A program made the translations under genes and the position numbers. From NCBI RefSeq assembly GCF_028369105.1, contig NZ_JAQNDO010000001.1:6418501-6482500 (forward strand): a stretch of 64,000 nt of DNA. The letters run 5' to 3'. The DNA is from Polyangium mundeleinium. GTDB lineage: Bacteria; Myxococcota_A; Polyangia; Polyangiales; Polyangiaceae. Numbering within the stretch: position 1 is the first letter of the stretch; each line of letters begins with the position of its first letter. A model generated the notes under the pieces. It saw only the letters and a list, made by a program, of their open reading frames with translations. It was not told the DNA's origin and made no database searches. Below, one piece after another: positions 6,026-42,214 of the stretch.

Positions 6026-9000
6026 ACCTCACCGACATCTCCATCAAGAACCCGGTCTTCGCCTGGATGCTCATGGCGTGCACGATCCTCTTCGGCATCG
6101 TCGCGGCCACGCGCATCGGCATCAGCCAGTACCCGGACGTCGACTACCCCAACATCAGCGTCAACCTCTCCTGGCCCGGCGCGTCGCCCTCGGCCGTCGA
6201 GCGCGAGATCGTCGAGCCGCTCGAACAGGCCCTCGCGCAGGTCGAGGGCGTCAAGGAGATCTCGTCGCAGGCGCGGCAGGGATCGGCGCGGATCACGGCG
6301 AGCTTCGACATCTCGCGCAACGTCGACCTCGCCCTCCAGGACGTCCAGGCCAAGGTCGCGCAGGCCCAGCGGCAGCTCCCGCGCGACGTGCCAGCAGCCA
6401 CCGTCTCCAAGTCGAACCCCGACGACACGCCCATCGTCACCGTCGGCGTCTCCGGCCCGTTTTCGCGCCAGCTCCTCGCCGACGTCGCCCGCTACCAGGT
6501 CCAGGAAAAGCTCCAGACCGTGCCGGGCGTCGGTCAAATCACGCTGAACGGCTACCTCGATCGCAACATCCGCATCTGGCTCGACACGAGCCGCCTCGCG
6601 GAAAAAGGCGTCGTCGCGAGCGACGTCATCGACGGGATCCGCCGCGAGCACGTCGAGGTCCCGGGCGGCCAGCTCGAAGCGGGCGGTAGGCAGCTCAACG
6701 TCCGCCTCCTCGGCGAGGCGCTCGACGTCGAGGCGCTGCGCAAGCTCGTGGTGCGGCACGTGAACAACACGCCCGTCTACCTCGAAGACGTCGCCGTCGT
6801 GGAGGACGGCTTCGAGGACGTGAACTCCGTCGCGCGGCTCGACGGCATCCCCTTGCAGGCGCTCGGCGTGCTCAAGCAACGCGGGACGAACGCCGTCGCC
6901 GTGGCGAGCGCGGTGCGCGAGAAGGTCACGGAGATCCAGCGCAGCCTGCCCGAGGGGATGAAGGTCGAGGTCCTCTTCGACACCACGACCTTCATCGAAG
7001 AGTCCGTCCACGAAATCGAGATCGAGCTCGGTCTCGCGCTCATCCTCACGGCGCTCGTCTGCTGGCTCTTCCTCGGCTCGCTCTCCAGCACGGTCAACGT
7101 GATCCTGGCGATCCCGATGTCGCTGCTCGGCACCGTGGCGGTCGTCTACTTCCTCGGCTTCACGCTGAACACATTTACCCTGCTCGGCCTCTCGCTCGCC
7201 GTCGGGCTCGTCGTCGACGACGCCGTGATGGTCATGGAGAACATCTACCGGCACGCCGAGATGGGGAAGGCGCGCGCCAAGGCCGCGGCCGACGGCACCA
7301 AGGAGATCACGTTCGCCGCGCTCGCGGCCACGGTCGCCGTCATCGCGATCTTCCTCCCCGTCGTGTTCATGGGCGGCGTCATCGGCCGCTTCTTCTTCCA
7401 GTTCGGCGTGACGCTCTCGGTGGCCGTGATGCTCTCGTACTTCGAGGCGATCACGCTCGCGCCCGCCCGCTGCGCGCAGATCCTCGACACCTCGCGCGAG
7501 GGGCGGAGCGCCGTCGGCAAGGCCATGGATCGCGGCTTCTCCGCGCTCGAACGCGGTTATGGACGCGTGCTCGGCAAGGCGCTCGCGCACCCCTGGAAGG
7601 TCCTCCTCGGCGCGACGCTCCTCCTCGGCGCCACCGCGTTCATCGTCCCGCGGCTCGGCACCGAGTTCGTCCCCGCGCAAGACCAGAGCCGCCTCGACGT
7701 CCGCATCCAGACGGAGACCGGGACCAGCGTGCAGGCCGCCGCGCCGCTCTTGCAGCGGGCCGAGCAGAAGCTCGCGGCGCGGCCCGAGGTCACGCGGGTC
7801 CTCACCACGCTCTCGGCCTCGCGCGGCGTGATGAGCTTGACCCTGGTCCCGCCGAACGAACGCAAGCTCTCGGCGCAGGAGCTCGCCGCCCAGATCCGCC
7901 GCGAATTGCAGTCGATCGCTGGCATCCGCGCGTCGGTGCAGGATCCCTCGCAGCAGAGCTTCGGCGCGCAGCGCGGGTATCCCGTCGACTTCACGGTGCG
8001 CGGCGCGGACTGGGACACGCTCGTCACGGCGGCGATGCAGCTCAAGACCGACCTCGAAAAGAGCGGCACCGTGACGGACGTGACGACCGACTACCAGATC
8101 GGCGCGCCCGAGGTGCAGATCGTCCCGGATCGCCGCCGCGCCACGGATCTCGGCGTCCCGGTGAGCGATCTCGCGAACACGGTGAGCGCGCTCGTCGGCG
8201 GCAACATCGTCGGCAAGTTCTCCACCGGGGGCCGCCGCGTCGACATCCGCGTGCGCCTCCTCGCCACGCAACGCTCTCGCCCCGAGGACCTCGGCGAGAT
8301 CCGCGTGCGGGCGCAAAATGGGACCACGATTCCGCTCTCGCTCGTCGTCTCGCAGAACGAGACGGCGGTGCTGCAATCGATCAACCGCGTCGATCGGGAG
8401 CGGGCGATCCGGATCTCGGGGAACGTGGCGCCGGGGCATTCGCAGATCGAGGCGATGAACACGGTGAAGGATCTTTCGAAGGCGCTGCCGCTCGGCTACC
8501 GGGCCGTGGCCGGCGGCCAGGCCTCGCAGTTCGACGAAACCACGGGGGGCCTCGTCTTCGCGCTCGTGATCGGGATCCTCGTCGCGTACATGGTGCTCGC
8601 AAGCCAGTTCAATTCGTTCCTGCACCCCGTCACCGTGCTGACGATTTTGCCCCTGGCGCTCTCGGGGGCGGCGATCGGCTTGTTCGTCACGGGCAAGACG
8701 CTGAACATCTTCAGCATGATCGGCGTGCTCTTGCTCATGGGCATCGTCAAGAAAAACTCCATTCTGCTCGTGGAGTACGCGAATCAAGTGCGCGAGCACG
8801 AGGGGTTGTCCGCGCACGAGGCCATGCGCAAGGCGGGGCCGCTGCGGCTGCGGCCGATCCTGATGACCACGATCGCGACGATGATGGCGGCCGTGCCGGC
8901 CGTGCTCGGCATCGGCCCGGGCACGGAGACGCGCAGCCCCATGGCCGTCGTGGTGCTCGGCGGGCTCACGGTGTCGACGCTGCTCAGCCTGCTCGTGGTG

Positions 9001-31984: not shown

Positions 31985-32617
31985 GTGATATCGTGGTGGA
32001 TGCGTGGTGCAATGGCGGCGACGCTCGTGCTGGCGACGGCCTGCGGGAGCACGGTGAACCAGGATGGATCCGGCGGCGCCGGTGGGACCGGCGGCGCAGG
32101 CGGGACCGGAGGCGAGGGGGGCGTGCTCCCGCCGGAATGCGTGGTCGAGACCTCGGAGACCGGGCCGTACGGGGTGACGTTCCAGTTCGAGAACAACGGG
32201 GCATTCCCGGCCTTCCTGCGGGAGGATTGCGCCGTCGAATACACGATCTCGTCGTGCGAGGACGGCTATTCTGCGTCGCTCGCCATCCGCGCCTCGTGCA
32301 GCCAGGCGTGCGACAGCACCGTGGACGGCTGCCTCACCTGCGGAGCCTGTCCGCCGGTGGGCGGCGTGCCGGTCGATGTCGGCGCGCAGACCACGGATAC
32401 CTGGGCGGGGATGCGATATACGTTCGGAATGACCGCCGAGGGGTGCAACTGCCACGAATCCCACGTGGCGCGGGCGGGGCGATATCAAATCCGGGTGCCG
32501 GTGTATACCTCCGACGACGCGGCGCAGACGGGAGCCCCCTCGTATGAGGTGACCGTGAACTTCGAGCTGCCGGCGCCGAACGGCGTGGTGGTGGTGCCCA
32601 TCGGGCAGTCGCCGTGA
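31985..32617 (+). CDS. Gly-rich, Cys-rich lipoprotein of unknown function
   Basis: 210 residues from GTG 31985, which has a GGAGGC Shine-Dalgarno. The lipobox is LATAC (Cys20), followed by a Gly/Thr-rich repeat tether. The mature part has about ten cysteines (CAVEYTISSC, CSQAC, CLTCGACPP, GCNCHE), suggesting disulphides outside the cytoplasm. It resembles the abundant small secreted lipoproteins of myxobacteria. Function unknown. It follows the kinase gene by 156 bp and may be separately transcribed. Confidence 0.75.
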   Translation: MISWWMRGAMAATLVLATACGSTVNQDGSGGAGGTGGAGGTGGEGGVLPPECVVETSETGPYGVTFQFENNGAFPAFLREDCAVEYTISSCEDGYSASLAIRASCSQACDSTVDGCLTCGACPPVGGVPVDVGAQTTDTWAGMRYTFGMTAEGCNCHESHVARAGRYQIRVPVYTSDDAAQTGAPSYEVTVNFELPAPNGVVVVPIGQSP

Positions 32618-32674
32618 GGCCCCAATGCATGAACTTCACGCATTGCACCGCGCGCGGTAGCGTTTCGCCGTCCG

Positions 32675-32803
32675 ATGCCGAGTCGATCGACCATTTCGCC
32701 GAGGAAGGTCCCGCAACAGCGACGCTCGCAGGCGCTCGTCCACGCGGTGATCGAGGCAGCGGTCCGCATCTTGATCTCGATGGCCAAAGGCGCTGTCCGA
32801 TGA
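32675..32803 (+). pseudogene. Truncated TetR-family regulator N-terminus
   Basis: 42 codons from ATG 32675 to TGA 32803. The segment SPRKVPQQRRSQALVHAVIEAAVRILI matches the opening of TetR-type DNA-binding domains, where a basic PRxxPxQxRS stretch is followed by helix 1 (VxAxIEAAxRIL). The recognition helix and ligand domain are absent; the frame closes directly after helix 1 and no continuation was found before 32902. It looks like a gene remnant. The rest of the 285-bp interval 32618-32902 shows nothing else recognisable. Confidence 0.45.
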
Positions 32804-32902
32804 GGCCCACGCGTCCGAAGCCGCGCGAGCCCGCCGCAGTACAGGCCGCGCTCCGGCGATTCAGCGTGTGGCAGTCTGCCCCCGCTTGCGGTCCGACCCC
32901 GA

Positions 32903-34927
32903 TCAGCGGAGGACGCGCAGGGCGCGCTGGTAGTATGCCCTTCGGCGCGCGAGCCCCCTGTATCCGCCGTTGATCCGGTACGTGATCTTCTTGAAGTCGC
33001 CCCGGTCCGCGAGCGCGTTCAGCTTGCGGCTCTTCCAGAACCACCCTGCAATGCGGAATCCCACGTCGAGGCGGGCTGCGCGTTTCGGGTTTTTCTCCAG
33101 GTCGATGCCGAGCGCCTTGCCCGCGGTGCGGTAATTGCTGCGGCCCGTGATCTGGATCGGGCCACGGCCCTTGAAGCGGGGGCCGTCGCCGGGGCGGACG
33201 TTTCCGAGATCCTTGCGCCCCTCGTAAGACTTGCCGGTGCCGAGCTCCTCGAAATGGCGGAGCTCCCCACTCTCGTGCGCCAGTTGCGCGAGGAACGCGG
33301 CGATCCGCTTCTTCGTGGTGATGGCCGCCTCCTTCATGGCCTTGTTGAGGTGTGGCAAGCACGCGCGGGCCCGCCCGACCGGGAGTCGAGGCATGATGGC
33401 CCTGAGCTCGGCCAGCGTGACCCCGGCCCGCGCCGCAGGCTTCTTCGCAGGCTTCTTCGCGGGCTTTTTCGCGGGCTTTTTCGTGGGCGCGGCGGCGGGC
33501 TTCACCACGCCCGCCTCGGTGCCGCCCGTCGGGGCCTCGGGCTGCGATTCGATCACCAGCGTGACAGGGCCCTGCTGCTCGCTCGTCACGGTCGTCTTGG
33601 TGGTCGCCCCCCGGCTGGAGAACGCTTTCAGCGCATGACGCCCGGGCTTTGCCATCGGCAACGAAAACGAGCCGTCTTCCGTCGAGGTCGTGGCAATCGT
33701 GGGAGCGCCCTGGCTGGAGATCGTGACCGTGACGTCGGCGAGCGGGCGCATTGCCGCGTCGACCACCTTGCCCGTGATCTCCCTGGCCGTCGTCCCGGCC
33801 TCGAGCGTCGCGCTCTCCGCCGAGCTCGCGGGAGCCGAGGCTCCCCGGGTGGGGGCCGGTAACCTGCCCCGCCGGTGCGTCGCCGCCTCCTCCGACCACC
33901 GCCGCAGGTTCTCGAGCACGTCGGCCGTGATGCGCAGCCCGGAGTTCCAGCGGATGGGCTCTTTGGGTCCGCTCGTGTGGATCCCGACCACGATGCGCCT
34001 CCCGTCCGGCCGCGTAACCCATATCGGGGCGCCGCTCTGCCCTTTAAACGTGTCGATGTCGTACTGGACGAGACGGGCGGCGGTGTCCCGCAGCTCCCGC
34101 GCGTGGAAGAAAAGGCGGCTGGCATTCTCGCGATCCCCCGGATATCCCGCGATATTGGCGAGGATGCCCGCGAGCGCCGCATCCGAGAGCGCCTCGGGCA
34201 CGAAGAAACCTTCTTCGAGCTGGACGGGCTCGTCGAGGAGGATCGCGCCGTAATCGTACTCCCGGGAGCGGCGCATGAGCCACGCCGACACCGTTCGGAA
34301 CCGGGTCGCTCTGACGGAGCCGAAGGGCCGCCGCGTCGCATCGAGCGCCGGGATCACCTCCACGGAGACCGCCCATCCGCCCATCTTCTGGCAGTCGTAC
34401 ACGCAATGCCCCGCCGTGATGACGGTGCGCGAATCGATGAGCCACCCCGTACCGGCGTTTGGGGCGCCATTGGTGCCGATGAGCCGCAGCGCGCAGATGG
34501 CTCGAAACGGTTCCACGTCGGTCGGGGAGACCAGGACCCGATCATCGTCGCCGAATAGGGCGACCGGCATTACGCGGATGGCGGCCTCGGCGCCCCCATT
34601 CTCCGGCTCCATCGTGAACGTCCGCGCCGGCGCGACCGTCGGCTTCTGCAAAAGCATGGCCCCCTCCCGTGCGAACCGCTTGGGCACGAGGAACCTGTCA
34701 GGCGTCTCCTCCACGCGCCTCCCGGGCGGGCCTGACATGGGCGCGGCGGCCTCCGGCCTTGGCCGCTGGTACCCTGGCACGTACTCGATCAGGCTCGTGG
34801 GCTTCATGGTGCCCGCCTCGGTCGCAGGGCCACACGGCCTGGGCCCGTCCTCGCTCCGGTAAACCTCGTCACCGCCGGTCACGTGGCTTCCCTCGGTGGC
34901 CACGACTCGACGACGATTCCTGTTCAT
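32903..34927 (-). CDS. V8/trypsin-like protease fused to a GH19 chitinase/lysozyme-like domain
   Basis: 674 residues from ATG 34927 (Shine-Dalgarno AGGGGGA). No signal peptide. The N-terminal 125 residues are low-complexity with a VPGYQRPRPE motif. A V8-like serine protease follows (about 130-345) with His174 (ITAGHCVY), Asp225 (EYDYGAILL) and Ser298 (KGQSGAPIW). A carboxypeptidase-regulatory-like beta domain (about 380-465) comes next, then a Lys-Pro linker (KKPAKKPAKK) and a GH19 domain (505-674) with QLAHESGELRHFEEL, the substrate-cleft signature FKGRGPIQITGRSNYR, and a C-terminal RINGGYRGLARR. The GH19 part resembles phage endolysin domains. The first two modules are shared with the 1050-residue protein at 37062-40214. 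Confidence 0.85.
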   Translation of the reverse strand: MNRNRRRVVATEGSHVTGGDEVYRSEDGPRPCGPATEAGTMKPTSLIEYVPGYQRPRPEAAAPMSGPPGRRVEETPDRFLVPKRFAREGAMLLQKPTVAPARTFTMEPENGGAEAAIRVMPVALFGDDDRVLVSPTDVEPFRAICALRLIGTNGAPNAGTGWLIDSRTVITAGHCVYDCQKMGGWAVSVEVIPALDATRRPFGSVRATRFRTVSAWLMRRSREYDYGAILLDEPVQLEEGFFVPEALSDAALAGILANIAGYPGDRENASRLFFHARELRDTAARLVQYDIDTFKGQSGAPIWVTRPDGRRIVVGIHTSGPKEPIRWNSGLRITADVLENLRRWSEEAATHRRGRLPAPTRGASAPASSAESATLEAGTTAREITGKVVDAAMRPLADVTVTISSQGAPTIATTSTEDGSFSLPMAKPGRHALKAFSSRGATTKTTVTSEQQGPVTLVIESQPEAPTGGTEAGVVKPAAAPTKKPAKKPAKKPAKKPAARAGVTLAELRAIMPRLPVGRARACLPHLNKAMKEAAITTKKRIAAFLAQLAHESGELRHFEELGTGKSYEGRKDLGNVRPGDGPRFKGRGPIQITGRSNYRTAGKALGIDLEKNPKRAARLDVGFRIAGWFWKSRKLNALADRGDFKKITYRINGGYRGLARRRAYYQRALRVLR

Positions 34928-34964
34928 GAGAATCCCCCTTCCTGGAATTCGATACCCGGGCATC

Positions 34965-35034
34965 CCCCCGCCTCGTGTGATCCTGGTCCGCGTGAAAAAT
35001 GAGGAGGGTCACCACGGAGGCGCCGACGCGCTCG
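34965..35034 (-). pseudogene. Remnant of a metallo-beta-lactamase coding sequence
   Basis: Between the M15 gene and the protease-GH19 gene the minus strand still encodes GASVVTLLIFHADQDHT, almost the motif GRASVVTLLIVSHAHQDHIG of the intact MBL domain at 37062-40214. At DNA level 34999-35018 is identical to 39949-39968, and the neighbouring TGTGATCCTG also matches (34976, 39923). The remnant is one codon shorter, and the first two metal histidines of HxHxDH are altered. It has no start or continuing frame. It implies that an MBL domain once preceded this protease. Confidence 0.6.
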
Positions 35035-35036
35035 GT

Positions 35037-35741
35037 TTATTTGGCTCCGCCTTTCTGGATGCGTTTCGCGAGCGCCACCGCCTCCGCGCGGGGCAGGATC
35101 ACCTCGAAGTGCATGTCGTCCTTGCGGCGGCGATAATTCCCTCCCCAGCGCAGGCCGTACTTCTTGATGAGCTCGTTGATGGTCTTGCGCTGGGCCGCGT
35201 TGAACGTCCCGGCGCGCCCGAGCGGGTGCTTCGGCGCGTTCAGATCGATGGCGATGCCGGCCCAGTGGAACGAGGGCCGCTTGGAGCCGCGGACGCTGCG
35301 GGCCGCGTACCCCCAGCACCACCCCTTGCGCAGCCGCTCCACCTTCTGGTGGAACTCCCTTGCGAAGCCGATGAGCAGCGGCGCGATGATCGCGCGGACC
35401 GGCAGGGCTACGGTCGTGCCCGGGACACGATACGTCTTGATCCCGATGCCTTTCCGGGTTCCCACGGTGAAGCCATTGATCGACGGCGTCTCCTTCTTCT
35501 CCCGCGCCACGGCTTCGGTTTCATGTCCGCCGACCTCCACGTCTTCGAGGACGTCCTCCCGGTCGCCCTCGACATGCTCGTGCCAGTCCTTGAGCGGCAA
35601 AACCCCCTCGGAATCGTCGACCACCTGGAGCGCGACGGGCTCGACCCCCTCGCCGACCTCCAGGATTTCGTCGACGTTCTCGCCAGCCGCTTTTTTAATG
35701 ACCCCAGCCGCAGATTTTCCATTTTGCTTGGTCCGGGCCAT
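35037..35741 (-). CDS. M15-family peptidase (D-Ala-D-Ala carboxypeptidase/endolysin-like)
   Basis: 234 residues from ATG 35741, with a strong Shine-Dalgarno (GGAGGTG). An acidic N-terminal half (20-80) has no assigned domain. The C-terminal half is an M15C/VanY-like zinc peptidase: SFHWAGIAIDLNAPKHP gives His159 and Asp166, and DDMHFEVI gives His211, the three expected zinc ligands. Relatives cut peptidoglycan stem peptides or act as phage L-alanyl-D-glutamate endopeptidases. No signal peptide. It lies 109 bp upstream of the protease-GH19 gene and is probably co-transcribed. Confidence 0.85.
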   Translation of the reverse strand: MARTKQNGKSAAGVIKKAAGENVDEILEVGEGVEPVALQVVDDSEGVLPLKDWHEHVEGDREDVLEDVEVGGHETEAVAREKKETPSINGFTVGTRKGIGIKTYRVPGTTVALPVRAIIAPLLIGFAREFHQKVERLRKGWCWGYAARSVRGSKRPSFHWAGIAIDLNAPKHPLGRAGTFNAAQRKTINELIKKYGLRWGGNYRRRKDDMHFEVILPRAEAVALAKRIQKGGAK

Positions 35742-36013
35742 ACGACACCTCCTCTGGGTTCAATGTTGTGCCCATGGTTCACATGGCAATCATCCAGCCG
35801 GGGATGGGAGACAAACTCTGAGAGAAGACATCTCCGGTCGCGGAGGTGCAGGCGTGAGACGTTGCCTGCGGGGGGGCCACGCACTGATTGACGGCGGAAA
35901 CCGGAAACCCAATGAAATGCATGACGCGAGTCTGTCGGCTCCGAAGACTGCGAACCCTGATGGGTCCGCGGGAAGGGACACGACTGCGCGCGAACCACGC
36001 AGGAGGGCAGGTC

Positions 36014-36748
36014 ATGGCAACAAAGCATTCGAAAAAATACGAATCCATGGCGGAACCGGCGCAGGAGTTCGTGACCGAGGTGCTCGAGCGGAGCGAGGTG
36101 GAGGGCCTCGAACTCGTGCTGAAAACGCAGGTCTCCGACCTCGAGAAGCTCATGCCTGGCAAAGCGGTGCCGAGCGAGACGTTGGTCAAGGCGATCTTCG
36201 CGCATTGCGCGGAGATCAACCAGCTGGCCAAGGAGGCCGCCGCCCGCGCCGGGAGCCACTTGGCTGCCGCGGAGGCCGGCGAGGACGAAGATGAGGTGGC
36301 CCCTGACTTTTCTTTCCCCACCTTCGAGGCTTTCCTCGCGAACGAGGCCGCCGCCACCGAGGCTGCCCAGGAGGGCGCAACGTCCGAGGCTGGGGCCCCG
36401 CCCAAGAGCCTGGTGACAACCGTGGCCGCGAAGCTCGTCTCCGCGATCGGCATTGAACCGGGCATGGTCACCGCAATCATCTTTGCGGTGCAGGTGGCGG
36501 ACAAGAAGAGCTGGCAGGCGCTGATCGATCACCTCAAGGGGAGGCGCTTCTCGAAAGCGAAGAAGCCCTTGAAGAAGGTGCTGAACGCGATGCGCTCGAG
36601 CAAGTTCCGGAACGCGCTCGCGAAGCGGGTCGGCGCCAAGGCTGCCGCCAAGATGGTGGCCAAGGTCGCCTCGAAGGCCCTCCCGTTCGTGGGGTGGACC
36701 TCCTTGGTTGTGGCGCTCGGCTGGGCCTTCGCCAGGCAGATCCGCTGA
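36014..36748 (+). CDS. Cationic helical protein of unknown function with C-terminal hydrophobic helix
   Basis: 244 residues from ATG 36014 (Shine-Dalgarno AGGAGGGCAGG). It has no signal peptide. The first half is helical and acidic (Glu/Asp-rich near 95-105). The second half is strongly cationic and amphipathic (KGRRFSKAKKPLKKVLNAMRSSKFRNALAKRVGAKAAAKMVAKVASK) and ends with a hydrophobic helix (ALPFVGWTSLVVALGWAF). No family was recognised. The composition would suit a membrane-active or nucleic-acid-binding protein. It is divergent from the M15 gene, 272 bp away, and convergent with the MBL-protease gene, with two strong hairpins between. Confidence 0.7.
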   Translation: MATKHSKKYESMAEPAQEFVTEVLERSEVEGLELVLKTQVSDLEKLMPGKAVPSETLVKAIFAHCAEINQLAKEAAARAGSHLAAAEAGEDEDEVAPDFSFPTFEAFLANEAAATEAAQEGATSEAGAPPKSLVTTVAAKLVSAIGIEPGMVTAIIFAVQVADKKSWQALIDHLKGRRFSKAKKPLKKVLNAMRSSKFRNALAKRVGAKAAAKMVAKVASKALPFVGWTSLVVALGWAFARQIR

Positions 36749-36787
36749 GCCTGTAGCTGGCGCATCGACGAGAATGCGCCGTTCCGT

Positions 36788-36837
36788 GCACACGAAGGCG
36801 CGCCCCCCGTACCCGCGGAGGGCGCGCCTTCGTGTGC
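36788..36837. terminator. Strong hairpin downstream of the cationic protein gene
   Basis: 18-bp perfect arms (36788-36805 GCACACGAAGGCGCGCCC; complement 36820-36837) with a 14-base loop. It lies 39 bp after the stop at 36748. There is no U-tract, so it may act as a terminator or as an mRNA stabiliser. Confidence 0.6.
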
Positions 36838-36946
36838 GCGAGGCGATCGTGAAATGCTGACCGACCGCCGTCGCACCTAACGCATTCTCCGCGCCAGGGA
36901 GGGCAGACCAGGTCCATCGGTGAATTCCTCGGTTCAGGCAGCAATG

Positions 36947-36993
36947 GACGTATCCGGGCCGGCTGCGCTCGGCACAGCCGGCCCGGATACGTC
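36947..36993. terminator. Strong hairpin downstream of the MBL-protease gene
   Basis: 19-bp perfect arms (36947-36965 and 36975-36993) with a 9-base loop. It lies 69 bp after the stop of the minus-strand gene at 37062, so it probably terminates that transcript. With the hairpin at 36788 it separates two convergent units. No clear U-tract. Confidence 0.6.
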
Positions 36994-37061
36994 GCGCGGT
37001 GGCGCGTTCAGGGCGCTACGCATGGACAAAGGTGGGGCATGATGGCCTGGAGCTGCGCGAG

Positions 37062-40000
37062 TTATACGCCGCCGCGCGTCGTGCGGCGGGGCTTCGGCGC
37101 TTTGGCCACCTTCGCGCCGAGCTTCGCGAAGGCCGCGCGCGTCTTCGGGCCGTAGGTGCCCGTGACCGGCACGCCGTGTTTGGCCTGGAACTTCTTCAGC
37201 GCCGCCTCGGTTTGCTCGCCGAACGTGCCCCGGTCCGCGTTCACCTGGGCCTTCGTCATGTGACCGAGCCTCACCAGCGCATTCTGGAGCTGCGTCACGG
37301 CCTCACTCTTGACGCAGCGTTTCATGCCTGTCCCCGGGAGTGGCATCCCACGCAGCGGAGGTTTCGACGGCGCCGCCACCGTTTCGTTCGTCATGTCCTC
37401 TCTCTCCGAATCGAGCATGATGGTCGCGTCGCTCGTCTCGTCCCCCGCGACGGTGGTCGTGGTGGCGCCTCTGCCTCCCGCCGAAAATGCCTCCACCCCG
37501 TAACGCCCCGACCTCGTGATCGGCAGCGTGAAGGAGCCGTCCTCCGCCGAGATCGCTGCGACCTCGGGATAAGGCGCGTCGCCTGCGCTGATCGCGACGG
37601 TGGCGCCGGCGATGGGGCGTCGTACACGGTCGATGACCCGGCCCCTGAGCATCGTCGCCGTACGCTCCCGCGGCCGTTCCCCTGCGCTCTCCGTCGCGGG
37701 CGCCTCTTCTCTGCGCGGCGCGCGTCGCCTCCGCGGATTCGGCGCCTCCGCCTCCGCCGCCCATTTCGTCAGGTTGCGGAGCACCTCGGCGGTGATCCGC
37801 GTCCCCGAGTTGAACTTCACGCTGGGCGTGGTGCCGTTCGTGTGGATCGCCGTCACGATGCGCTTCCCATTCGGGAGCGTGACCCACACCGGGCTGCCGC
37901 TCTGACCGCCGAACGTATCGATGTCGTACTGGACCCGCCGCGTCCCGATGTTCTGGAGCTTTCGCGCGTGGAAGAAGAGGCGCCGGCCGAGCTCTCGATC
38001 CGAAGGGTACCCCGCGATGTTCGCGAGGACGCCCTCGAGCTCCGCGTTCGAGGCCGGCATGGGCACGAAGAAGCCACTTTCGAGCCTGATGGGCTCGTCG
38101 AGCAGGATGACGCCGTAATCGTACTCCGACGACTTGTCCTTGATCCACTCCTCCGCGGCGTGGAACTTCTTCCCCACCACCGAGCCGAACGGCCTCGCGT
38201 CGGAATCAAGCGCCGGGGTGACCTCCACGGATTTCATGAAGCCTCCGAAGGCGTGGGAATAGACGCAATGCCCCGCCGTGAGGACGGTGCGCGGATTGAT
38301 GAGGCAGCCCGTGCCAATGAACCGCTTTCCATCGGCGCTGGTCATGCGCAACGAGCATATCGCGCGCCAGGGCAGCGCCGTCGTCGGGGTGATGAGCCGC
38401 CGATCGTCGACGCCGCCGACGATGCTCTCGGTCGCCGTGATGGGGGCCAGGTAGGCTGGGTCGAACAGGGTCTCCGGCTCGGCCGCGGCCTCGATCGCGA
38501 GCGTGGCTTCCTCCCCCGTGGGCTTGGCGGGGCGGGCGGGGCGCAGGACAGGGTCGGAGGGCGCAGCGCCCGTTTCGAGCCCGTGCTCGAGCTCGGCGGC
38601 GACCCCGCCGGCGCGCCGATACCCAGGTACGAACTCCAGGACTCCCTCCAAGGGAGCGACGTTGGTCTCCTCCCCCCGCTCCCCGGCAAACCCGACGTTG
38701 GTCTCGTCCCCGTGCTCCGGGGCAGACCCGACGCACGGCCCGGAAGCGACCGGCTTTCCACGTGCGCGCGATTCTGTCTCCTCCATGTCCACCTCGTCCA
38801 TATCCACCTCGTCCATATCCGCCTCGTCCATGTCCGCCTCGTCCATGTCCGCCTCGTCCATGTCCGCCGTTTCCGATCGCCTCGAGCCTCTCGGCGGGCT
38901 CGCGTCGTTGATGTGACCGCAGGACACGTTCACGGCCGGCTCGCCCTTGTCGAAGCGGATCGTCGTGAGCCCGTTCTTGTCGGTCCGCGCCCAGCGCAGG
39001 TCGCGCTTGGCGCGTGTCCTCTTCATGAGATCGATCGTCCTCGCGTTCGGGTGCCGGCTGCTCTTTTCGCCGGCGCATATGCCGAGCAATCGGGGATTCC
39101 CCATGAGCTCGAGGAGCTCTGCGCTGATTCCGTTGTCGCTCCCGTGATGCGACAGCTTCACGAAGTCGTAGGGCGCGTCCTTCCGGATGGCCCCGAGGAT
39201 CTTCTTCATCCCAGCGAGCACCGTGGGGTCCGTGGTTTGCGGATCCGCGAGCTGCATATCCCCGGTGAACAGGAACTTCTTGCCTTGATATGCGAAGACC
39301 AGCACCGAGCTCTGGAGGTTCACGAACTTCGATACGCGGGGAATTCCCGCCTCCTCGCCCCCCCCGGCCTCCTCGTCCGCGGAGGCGAAACGCGAGGCGA
39401 ACCTACGGTAAACCTCGAGCTCACGCGCCTCTTTGGCCTCGTCAGCCTCCTCGTCGGGGCTCTCGGTGCTCTCGGCCGCGAGCACTTTCTCGATTTCGAC
39501 GCTCATCGTCTCCAGACCCCCGGAGATGCCCTCCGCGCAGGCGGCGACGTGTTTTCGGGTCGGGCCGAGGAGCTTCAGGGAAACCCCGCGGCGCGCGAGC
39601 GCCTCCACGAGCGGCCGGACCGCAGGGTCGTCGCTCCCCAAAAACGGAATGACCCGCGTTCCTTTGCGGGCCAGCGTATTCAGCATCTCGCGGTACTCGT
39701 CATCCATGCGCTGTGCCGCTTCGAGGAACGCGCTCTCCTCGCCGGCGTCGTCGAACTCTTGCGGCTCCTCGCGCAGGGCCGCCGCGATCCGGAGCGCGGA
39801 GGGCGATACCTCCGGCGCCGCGCGTTCCCTGCCCACTTTGCCCCAGCCGAGCTCCGGATGCGCCACGAGCGCCCACTCGGCGACGAGGTGCCCGTCGCGC
39901 ACGAGCCGCGGCAGGCACCCGATGTGATCCTGATGCGCATGAGAGACGATGAGGAGGGTCACCACGGATGCGCGACCTCGCTGCGGCAGGAGCGGCTTGA

Positions 40001-40214
40001 TCTGCTCCTGAATCGAGAGGTGTCCGTCTTTCCGCCGGTGATTGGCGGGGTGGGCCCCGTCGATCATGATGGAGATGTCGCCGAAGCGGCAGAGCACTGC
40101 ATCGCCGTAGGGTTGTTCCCCTACGTCGAGCAACGTGAGCATGAACGGCGCCTCGGCGGAAAGGGCGGGGCGCGCCTCGGTCCCGCCCACGTCCTCGCGT
40201 GTTTTACGGCCCAT
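37062..40214 (-). CDS. MBL-fold / V8-like protease / beta domain / PG-binding fusion
   Basis: 1050 residues from ATG 40214, chosen because GGAGGT sits 6 bases upstream; ATG 40220 directly abuts it. No signal peptide. A ComEC-like metallo-beta-lactamase domain (20-430) has HAHQDH (His92, His94, Asp96, His97), FTGDMQLAD (316-324) and LSHHGSDNG (354-362). An acidic ADMDE repeat (about 450-480) follows, then a V8-like protease (610-830) with His649, Asp699 and Ser772 (GGQSGSPVW), a carboxypeptidase-regulatory-like domain (855-935) and a PG-binding domain (970-1035, QTEAALKKFQAKHGVPVTG). Hydrolase, protease and wall-binding modules are all intact. The protease and beta domain resemble those at 32903-34927. 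Confidence 0.88.
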   Translation of the reverse strand: MGRKTREDVGGTEARPALSAEAPFMLTLLDVGEQPYGDAVLCRFGDISIMIDGAHPANHRRKDGHLSIQEQIKPLLPQRGRASVVTLLIVSHAHQDHIGCLPRLVRDGHLVAEWALVAHPELGWGKVGRERAAPEVSPSALRIAAALREEPQEFDDAGEESAFLEAAQRMDDEYREMLNTLARKGTRVIPFLGSDDPAVRPLVEALARRGVSLKLLGPTRKHVAACAEGISGGLETMSVEIEKVLAAESTESPDEEADEAKEARELEVYRRFASRFASADEEAGGGEEAGIPRVSKFVNLQSSVLVFAYQGKKFLFTGDMQLADPQTTDPTVLAGMKKILGAIRKDAPYDFVKLSHHGSDNGISAELLELMGNPRLLGICAGEKSSRHPNARTIDLMKRTRAKRDLRWARTDKNGLTTIRFDKGEPAVNVSCGHINDASPPRGSRRSETADMDEADMDEADMDEADMDEVDMDEVDMEETESRARGKPVASGPCVGSAPEHGDETNVGFAGERGEETNVAPLEGVLEFVPGYRRAGGVAAELEHGLETGAAPSDPVLRPARPAKPTGEEATLAIEAAAEPETLFDPAYLAPITATESIVGGVDDRRLITPTTALPWRAICSLRMTSADGKRFIGTGCLINPRTVLTAGHCVYSHAFGGFMKSVEVTPALDSDARPFGSVVGKKFHAAEEWIKDKSSEYDYGVILLDEPIRLESGFFVPMPASNAELEGVLANIAGYPSDRELGRRLFFHARKLQNIGTRRVQYDIDTFGGQSGSPVWVTLPNGKRIVTAIHTNGTTPSVKFNSGTRITAEVLRNLTKWAAEAEAPNPRRRRAPRREEAPATESAGERPRERTATMLRGRVIDRVRRPIAGATVAISAGDAPYPEVAAISAEDGSFTLPITRSGRYGVEAFSAGGRGATTTTVAGDETSDATIMLDSEREDMTNETVAAPSKPPLRGMPLPGTGMKRCVKSEAVTQLQNALVRLGHMTKAQVNADRGTFGEQTEAALKKFQAKHGVPVTGTYGPKTRAAFAKLGAKVAKAPKPRRTTRGGV
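38778..38867 (-). repeat. 15-bp coding repeat (ADMDE linker)
   Basis: Six tandem 15-bp units inside the MBL-protease gene encode ADMDE four times, then VDMDE and VDMEE. The first units are identical, so the array is recent or actively homogenised. It makes a highly acidic linker between the MBL and protease domains. Confidence 0.85.
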
Positions 40215-40492
40215 GGTCATACCTCCACGTGATGCACATCGGGCGTTCGTATCGCCGCCGCGAAATGCTCTTCTCATTTCATTGGAGAGCCTGCCCGACG
40301 CCGCAAGAACCTAACGCGTGGCGATCGTGTTCGTGCACCGATCCGTTGCCACGTGAAACCCAGACGCCATATTGACAGAGGAGCCGAGGTCGAGGCGGAC
40401 GTCGACCCGAGCGGGAACCGGTGGCGGGCTGTTCGACGCGCCGCCACCAGCTCACTCGTCCATTGGCACGGAGAAGGCGAAGGAGAGCTGCG

Positions 40493-40534
40493 ATGCCAGC
40501 TTGGAAGCGAATGAAGGAGAACCCCGATGCCTAG
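40493..40534 (+). CDS. 13-residue leader reading frame
   Basis: A short frame (MPAWKRMKENPDA) starts at ATG 40493 with a good Shine-Dalgarno (AAGGAGAG) and ends at TAG 40534, 8 bases inside the dual-M15 gene that starts at 40527. Such an arrangement would couple translation. It may also be chance. The 312 bp between 40214 and 40527 hold no larger gene; a TTGACA sequence is at 40373 without a convincing -10. Confidence 0.3.
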   Translation: MPAWKRMKENPDA

Positions 40535-41696
40535 CCCGAACCCTTCCGCGATCACCAATCCAATGTGGAACTTCTGGCTTGCGTTCAAGGCCCTGGAGCC
40601 CTCCGTAAGGATGGGCGGGATCTACGCCAACAAGCCCGGGTACCACAACAAGCGCTCCAACCTCCCCAAAAGTGACTACTCCGTCCGGTTGGCTGCCGAC
40701 AAGACCGGCCCGAACCATGCCGCTGCCATCGACCTCTCCCTTCCACCTGCGAAGATGAAGGTCTACTCCAGCCGGCTGCTGAAGTCCGGCAAGGACATGA
40801 AAGACGAGCGAGGCAACTACCTCCGGGAGTTCTACGGCACCATCAACGGCCGAAGCGTCGTGGGCTGGGACTTCCAGTCCGTCACCGCGTCAACCTCTGA
40901 CACCACTCATCTCTGGCACATACACCTCTCCTTCCTCCGGAAGTACCTCAACGACCCCAAGGCGTTCCGTGCGGTCATGAGCATCCTCCGAGGCGAGAGC
41001 GTGGCGAGCTGGCGTGCGAAGGAGAAGGCGCTCCAGGCTCGCGGGAAGCCTCCGGGGAAACGCGTCGCCCCGCCCAAGCGTGCGACGGCGGAGGCGAAGC
41101 TCGCGCCGGCCCCGATTCCCGAGAGCGACGCGAGGCTTGCGGCGAAGCGCGTCCCCCCGGCCAAGCGTGCGGCGGCGAAGGCGAAGTTCAAGCCGGTCCC
41201 GATCCCCGGGGGCAACGCGAAGGCGTGGCCGAAGCCCACCACTCGGGCACAGAAGACCCAGGCCGTGGCAGCGATTCTGCAACGGTTCGTCGAGCGATAC
41301 TACCCGAAGGCTGCGGAGCTGAGAATCACCTCGGCCCAGCGGGACCGGGAAGACAAGGGCGGGACGTGGTCACACCACAACGGTCAGGTGTACAAGAACA
41401 GCCCGACAGCGGCCGTGGACTTCGCCCAGCGGACGGGGTCCTTCCCCGGCCCCGCAGCGAGCACGAAGATGCGGGACTTCGCGAAGTGGTGGTTCGATAA
41501 CTTCGGGGACCTCACCGTCGAGATGCTGCATTCGACGCCGTTCTCTACCGACAAGGGATTCTTTGTCAAGAATCAGAAGAAGTCGGGCGGGTTCGACGCC
41601 CACCACGTCAACCACGTACACATAGCGATGAGCAGGCATCTGCTGGTTCTCGCCGAGAATAGAGCGGCAAGGAAGTGGCCAGCCAGGAAGCCGTGA
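40527..41696 (+). CDS. Protein with two M15-like peptidase domains
   Basis: 389 residues from ATG 40527 (AAGGAG Shine-Dalgarno). No signal peptide. The N-terminal domain (1-160) has NHAAAIDLS (His64, Asp69) and HLWHIHLSF (His128, His131, His133). The C-terminal domain (240-389) has SHHNGQVYKNSPTAAVDFAQ (His283/His284, Asp298) and VNHVHIAM (His363, His365). Both fit the His...Asp...His zinc pattern of M15/D-Ala-D-Ala peptidase-like enzymes. The linker holds two imperfect copies of a 28-residue Lys/Ala/Pro repeat (AKRV-PPAKRA-type). Phage- and actinobacteria-like peptidases have similar modules, so transfer is possible. It sits at the end of the wall-lytic cluster. Confidence 0.75.
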   Translation: MPSPNPSAITNPMWNFWLAFKALEPSVRMGGIYANKPGYHNKRSNLPKSDYSVRLAADKTGPNHAAAIDLSLPPAKMKVYSSRLLKSGKDMKDERGNYLREFYGTINGRSVVGWDFQSVTASTSDTTHLWHIHLSFLRKYLNDPKAFRAVMSILRGESVASWRAKEKALQARGKPPGKRVAPPKRATAEAKLAPAPIPESDARLAAKRVPPAKRAAAKAKFKPVPIPGGNAKAWPKPTTRAQKTQAVAAILQRFVERYYPKAAELRITSAQRDREDKGGTWSHHNGQVYKNSPTAAVDFAQRTGSFPGPAASTKMRDFAKWWFDNFGDLTVEMLHSTPFSTDKGFFVKNQKKSGGFDAHHVNHVHIAMSRHLLVLAENRAARKWPARKP

Positions 41697-41738
41697 GAGG
41701 GCCTGAGACGTATATCTGTTGTCGGCTGGGTCGTGGAG

Positions 41739-41936
41739 ATGACCCGCGACGGCGAAAGCGAGCCCGCTCTGGTGGGCCCGTGGACAATGGGGCGCGGATG
41801 CAGGTCGACCTCGACGTGGTGCCCGATGAGGACGATCCCCACGCGATCCTGACCTTGCGAGACCGCTCTGGGGCGGTGACACGGTCGGCGCTGCCGATGG
41901 TATCGGGCGTAAGGGATGCCGGCCGCGCCTTGAACG
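41739..41936 (+). pseudogene. Possible decayed gene fragment
   Basis: ATG 41739 with GGAG directly upstream opens MTRDGESEPALVGPWTMGRG. A +1 shift then reads MQVDLDVVPDEDDPHAILTL and continues RDRSGAVTRSALPMVSGVRDAGRALN, after which coding character stops. The acidic Val/Asp-rich beta-strand pattern resembles beta domains of contractile-tail or T6SS-associated spike proteins, but this is weak. It may be a remnant related to the neighbouring cluster. Confidence 0.25.
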
Positions 41937-42214
41937 GAATTTCCGGAGCCTCCTCGCACGGGGCCCCCCGCTTCGGAGGGCCCGCCAGGATCACCGCCGC
42001 TTCATGGCGCGAAGCAACTTGCCGACGGCATGGTGCGCAGCCCGCGCAGCGGTCGTGCTTTCGTCGGTATCCGAAAGCGGAGTGGCACCAACGCGCGCCA
42101 ACGGGGTCGATCCGTCATCAGCAGGACGCGGATCCAGCGGGTTACGCCGGGTCAGGGGTGCCGGAATCCGAAGCGGAGGCGGAGGCGGCAACGCATCCGC
42201 CGAGGGCGCGACGT

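Follow-up and report, generated by a model that had tools for sequence, protein, structure and literature searches.

A probable MBL-domain remnant between an M15 peptidase gene and a protease-GH19 gene in Polyangium mundeleinium

The locus under study lies in a 64,000-nucleotide stretch of DNA (the window) from a 13.25-Mb, two-contig genome of Polyangium mundeleinium, where gene A, an M15 peptidase gene, a 109-bp gap and gene B follow one another in reading order on the minus strand. For comparison, we drew on the genomes G003 and G005 of the same genus and on two loci of the close relative Polyangium sp. 15x6 (apparently the genome labeled G005), namely L012, which is the orthologue of the window locus with gene blocks ~95% identical, and L013. 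Gene A (37062..40277) carries, by Pfam and alignment, an MBL, a trypsin-like protease, a carboxypeptidase-regulatory and a PG-binding domain, and its true start is likely near 40220, since L012 has a stop codon just upstream of the matching methionine. The M15 gene (35037..35741; Pfam PF13539) would be the ancestral upstream neighbor of the fusion gene described below. Gene B (32903..34927), which starts with MNRNRRR, encodes trypsin-like protease, carboxypeptidase-regulatory and GH19 domains by Pfam; its mechanically called ORF begins at 34963, and we prefer the start at 34927, which is kept in L012 and aligns to an internal methionine of the G003 protein. Between gene A and the M15 gene, a plus-strand ORF (35888-36748) has an 82% identical counterpart in 15x6 and gave no match in Pfam, PADLOC, NCBIfam or PHROGs at E 0.001.

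The whole gap between the M15 stop and the start of gene B (34928..35036, minus strand) was aligned at its edges with G003, L013, L012 and a further copy of the locus at 5.57 Mb on contig C1 of the same genome. By alignment, it consists in reading order of a 12-bp spacer, a short stretch resembling the HxHxDH region of an MBL gene, and sequence running into what appears to be an old linker. The MBL-like stretch, hereafter the fossil (34976..35024, minus strand), corresponds to codons 66-83 of the intact G003 fusion, as placed by local alignments to the MBL part of gene A, the third MBL copy of the genome (at 5.57 Mb), G003 and L013.

The similarity of this short stretch to the MBL gene is real. 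The sequence-only reading had pointed to twenty bases (34999-35018) identical to 39949-39968 in gene A and to a further 10-base match, and both hold: the twenty bases occur nowhere else in the window on either strand, and alignment sets 34976-34985 against 39923-39932. On pairwise alignment with gene A, the match extends to 51 columns, of which 43 are identical and 3 are gaps. Against gene A, the fossil scored 57, while 1746 random 109-base pieces of the window reached at most 39; the scores were 53 against the intact G003 fusion (maximum of 42 among 1735 random pieces) and 58 against the third MBL copy (maximum of 45 among 1733). When the fossil was searched against its own genome, with 40 of 82 candidates scored, only the third MBL copy (83%, E 2e-7) and gene A (82%, E 7e-7) fell below E 0.1, and the next match stood at E 0.104. 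Since these two matches among the candidates scored are both MBL genes, we ruled out a common short repeat as the source. Since the third copy, with an identical run of 21 bases, matches equally well, the neighboring gene A is not a special source of the fossil.

The proposed reading of the stretch, GASVVTLLIFHADQDHT, proved correct, with Asp in place of the second His of HxHxDH and one codon absent. With ~17 codons remaining, HxHxDH changed to HxDxDH and that codon gone, the fossil is unable to encode an MBL domain. A tblastn search gave E 2.2e-4 in the gap and E 6.8e-4 for an unrelated stretch downstream of gene B, a false match that marks protein searches of the cassette gaps as noisy; the case depends on the DNA match and the position, protein-level similarity by itself being weak evidence. 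Together, significant similarity, collinearity with an intact relative and loss of coding give the fossil the features of a pseudogene remnant, probably one without function.

The intact relative is found in G003, where the MBL-protease-GH19 fusion that the sequence-only reading had suggested looking for is present as an open gene of 1203 aa. It unites the domains of genes A and B in the order MBL, trypsin-like protease, carboxypeptidase-regulatory, PG-binding and GH19, and an M15 gene ends 31 bp upstream of it. At L013 of 15x6, the M15 gene is followed by the start of the MBL domain through HAHQDHIG and then directly by the protease start; compared to G003, a single 1142-bp block starting just past HxHxDHIG is absent, and one base is missing within the MBL piece. 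The window order of M15, MBL scrap and protease-GH19 is collinear with both G003 and L013. The intact fusion in G003 and the larger MBL remnant at the same place in 15x6 support the earlier proposal that the protease-GH19 gene was once longer and had an N-terminal MBL domain. The copy at 5.57 Mb of the window's own genome consists of an M15 gene, a truncated MBL with HAHQGH rather than HAHQDH, a 66-bp inverted protease piece and a lysozyme-type end. At this locus (L059), a phage-lysozyme domain (minus strand, 6790-7380) stands beside the truncated MBL where PG-binding and GH19 would stand, and so the cell-wall hydrolase end seems exchangeable.

Gene A was also searched in six genomes of the genus, with 20 candidates scored in each: strong matches were found in the window's own genome, G003 and G005, only a weak protease match in G004, and no match in two genomes. 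Across 76 genomes of the order, a draw that left out G003 and G005 and had up to 24 candidates scored in each genome, a related MBL at E 1e-8 was found only in the window's own genome and G054. In G054 (L066), the related MBL is fused to a Peptidase_C25-like domain, and its neighbor gene combines caspase and DEAD helicase domains, an arrangement that resembles a defense locus. Plasmid records contained 16 gene A matches, none spanning 80% of the gene, and the ten that were listed are protease matches.

The start of gene B points to the same history. The fusion linker reads EGERVMNDRG in G003 and GERVMNERG in L013, and gene B begins with MNRNRRR after AGGAAGGGGG and six further bases. The Met codons of gene B, G003 (VMNDRG) and L013 (VMNERG) share one alignment column, and the L012 gene B start is identical to that of the window. 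Since these Met codons align with the linker Met of the fusion, gene B starts within former coding sequence. The purine-rich run AGGAAGGGGG (34934..34943, minus strand) likewise aligns with linker codons of the fusion, as compared across gene B of the window and L012, L013 and G003, and is a putative ribosome-binding site for the start at 34927, which is probably the one used in the cell. On the linker side of the window junction, the alignment with G003 is clear only over the last ~20 bases before the start. The MBL domain had been described as later replaced or separated; replacement is not needed as an explanation, since the protease start lies in the old linker.

On the other hand, the claim that the M15 gene occupies the space vacated by the MBL domain did not hold, as the MBL start is immediately preceded by M15 in G003, at L013 and at the second locus of the same genome (5.57 Mb). 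Since M15 is the upstream neighbor of MBL at these three other loci, it was there before the MBL loss. Identity between the window M15 and each of the three other copies, which are 95-97% alike mutually, is 86-87% over the last 440 nt of the gene and falls to only 57-60% in the 5' part. Because its distances to the three are about equal, we consider the window M15 an old copy, and recent transfer from another M15 locus was ruled out. Overall, the sequence-only reading was right about the former MBL domain of the protease-GH19 gene and wrong about the role it gave to M15.

We are strongly inclined to conclude that an MBL domain, formerly the N-terminus of the protease-GH19 protein, survives in this stretch as a dead remnant. 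The history that we propose builds on the homology, the intact relative, the larger-remnant copy, the collinear order and the aligned start described above. In the ancestral unit, a single long gene encoding MBL, trypsin-like protease, carboxypeptidase-regulatory, PG-binding and GH19 domains would have stood behind an M15 gene. The lineage of the window would then have undergone two deletions, one running from just past the M15 stop to codon 66 and the other from codon 83 into the linker, which left ~49 bp of MBL sequence; both their number and their order are our best estimate. The truncated gene B would then start at the internal Met of the old linker, with the purine-rich stretch before it as a possible ribosome-binding site, while the neighboring gene A would have kept its MBL and lost its GH19 end. 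Gene truncation or fission that leaves pseudogene remnants is a general class, and the window resembles it in having a partial, broken copy that is collinear with an intact relative and a new start in the old frame. It differs in that complementary remnants lie at two neighboring paralogues, MBL before one and GH19 after the other, and in that a larger remnant is kept by a copy in a related species.

In a protease tree, gene B groups with G003 and L013, with gene A outside (ultrafast bootstrap 89, SH-aLRT 97), although this bootstrap is below the tool's strict level of 95 and the distant outgroups sit on very long branches. From this tree, we take genes A and B to be old paralogues, with B nearer to the single-locus copies than to A, so that an origin of the two as a tandem pair is at most a possibility. 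The fossil itself is too short for placing in a tree. The tie to the neighboring paralogue is therefore looser than had been claimed, given this grouping of the gene B protease and the equal closeness of the fossil to the third MBL copy.

Besides the limits of the tree, the fossil length and the junction alignment given above, two observations count against this history. L012 is without both M15 and the fossil, and therefore a later loss in 15x6 must be assumed; such a loss is favored because similarity between L012 and the window resumes at 34951 in the direction of gene B, or by alignment perhaps already just past the fossil. In addition, the window deletion, the L013 deletion and the change in L012 all have borders within roughly 25 bp of one another at the HxHxDH codons (window 34976), a coincidence that the proposed history does not account for and that may reflect a hotspot or recombination.

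The state of L012 could instead mean that the fossil arrived with M15, as part of an M15 and MBL-start segment inserted upstream of a protease-GH19 gene that never had an MBL domain. The border of this segment does lie at or near the fossil end, and the genome does hold an M15-MBL locus at 5.57 Mb. However, the window M15 is about equally far from the three other copies and looks old rather than recently transferred, M15 stands beside the protease-GH19 unit in both G003 and L013, and L012 and the window share the sequence that runs from 34951 in the direction of the gene B start, so we consider an insertion unlikely. It is far less probable still that gene conversion or templated insertion placed a short piece of the neighboring MBL gene in the gap; the twenty bases shared with gene A would fit such an event, but the third MBL copy matches as well with its 21-base run, and the piece sits in the collinear place of MBL in G003 and L013.

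The persistence of 82-83% similarity to coding copies over ~50 bp might also suggest that the stretch is kept for a function, for example as a regulatory element or a small RNA located between the M15 and protease genes. This we find the least credible of the alternatives: window positions 32000-42000 gave no Rfam match at gathering level, the stretch is absent from the 15x6 orthologue despite an intact downstream gene, and the motif is itself 43-46/54 identical between the A genes and other MBL copies. Because of this conservation of the motif, retention of the fossil needs merely a fairly recent loss. Read as a dead remnant, the fossil is a case of ordinary gene decay that relatives document well.

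Gene A carries a complementary scrap of its own (37029..37061, minus strand), directly past its stop. The gene ends at TRGGV, and the G003 fusion reads on from these same residues, through TLAELRAIMPNL, into GH19. Past the gene A stop, the codons read LAQLQAIMPHL against LAELRAIMPNL in the fusion, with 8/11 identical and in register. Among 127,936 eleven-codon readings taken across the window, a count of at least 7 is reached by this scrap and gene B only, gene B alone scoring higher. The DNA match is weak, since its score was reached by 13 of 1749 random pieces against G003 and by 15 of 1749 when gene B was the target, and the in-register peptide count was chosen after this weak result was known. 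In the 15x6 orthologue of gene A, LAEL is kept after the stop and is followed by sequence matching repeat copies elsewhere. With this second scrap, made of the first GH19 codons, the two window genes have therefore lost complementary ends, gene A its GH19 and gene B its MBL and PG-binding domains. Within gene A, 15-bp repeats (38778-38867) code for an acidic DMDEA-type linker whose sequence differs between the window and 15x6.

A ~310-bp imperfect palindromic repeat was seen at 454-644 of the window, 7475-7790 of L012, and 7597-7912 and 13288-13600 of L013, and also just behind gene A in 15x6. With 40 of 256 candidates scored, it occurs at at least some forty places in the genome (84 matches, many of them both strands of one place). 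The own-genome search with the fossil, at 40 of 82 candidates scored, shows no multiplicity like that of this repeat family.

As to the domain that was lost, the best PDB match of a structural model of gene A is the ComEC MBL domain 9ic4 (E 3.3e-13, TM 0.72 by target, rmsd 8.4), in a model that is only moderate (mean pLDDT 63, from 4 sequences). A sequence profile search of the gene A MBL also has ComEC as its best match, and a ComEC-like MBL fold bearing HxHxDH is accordingly assigned to gene A and the G003 fusion. In PADLOC, the MBL part of gene A and the G003 fusion match LmuA, RTasMBL and Avs1a, and the NCBIfam Avs1a and ComEC matches are far below the curated cut-offs.

According to the part of PMC12799240 considered here, nuclease-protease pairs occur in AVAST, Lamassu, Hachiman and DRT; their MBL nucleases are proenzymes that are gated by two disordered insertions and opened by a trypsin-like partner, and the paired nuclease is always a separate gene. 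Gene A and the G003 fusion resemble the pairs in this account by having a ComEC-like MBL followed by a trypsin-like protease. In the gene A model, low-confidence stretches lie between the MBL motifs; positions 125-154 and 275-298 have pLDDT below 50 almost throughout, and other stretches are likewise low. As compared to the pairs described there, MBL and protease form one polypeptide rather than two genes, PG-binding and GH19 domains take the place of HamA, Avs or LmuA behind the protease, and an M15 gene lies upstream of the fusion. The single chain was seen in gene A, its 15x6 orthologue and G003, and its partner domains, PG-binding and GH19, do not make it a protease fused to a defense enzyme. 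Since the nuclease is not a separate gene, we do not file the fusion as a member of the gated pairs, although by analogy, the fused protein may work like one.

The GH19 part, the M15 protein and the lysozyme piece at 5.57 Mb have PHROG endolysin matches, which likens them to phage endolysins with GH19, M15 or lysozyme domains; unlike in these, the GH19 here is fused to MBL and protease, and strong copies occur in 3/6 of the genus genomes searched. Our literature search gave no report that looked relevant to an MBL, trypsin-like and chitinase or endolysin combination. As a tentative proposal that we hold to be possible rather than probable, the ancestral protein would be a predicted single-chain self-destruct or killing enzyme, in which a pro-nuclease is linked to a cell-wall hydrolase and to the protease that cuts it open. 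The window copies would then split the parts, with nuclease and protease in A and protease and endolysin in B; the proteases may act in trans, and the fossils would record the division.

The value of this case is that domain loss, a new start in old coding sequence and complementary loss between paralogues can all be traced through an intact relative and a larger-remnant copy. The intact protein is of greater interest than the fossil, since it combines an endolysin-type domain with a trypsin-like protease and a ComEC-like MBL in a single polypeptide. It indicates a fused form of the nuclease-protease partnership, as opposed to the always separate nuclease gene in the part of PMC12799240 considered here.
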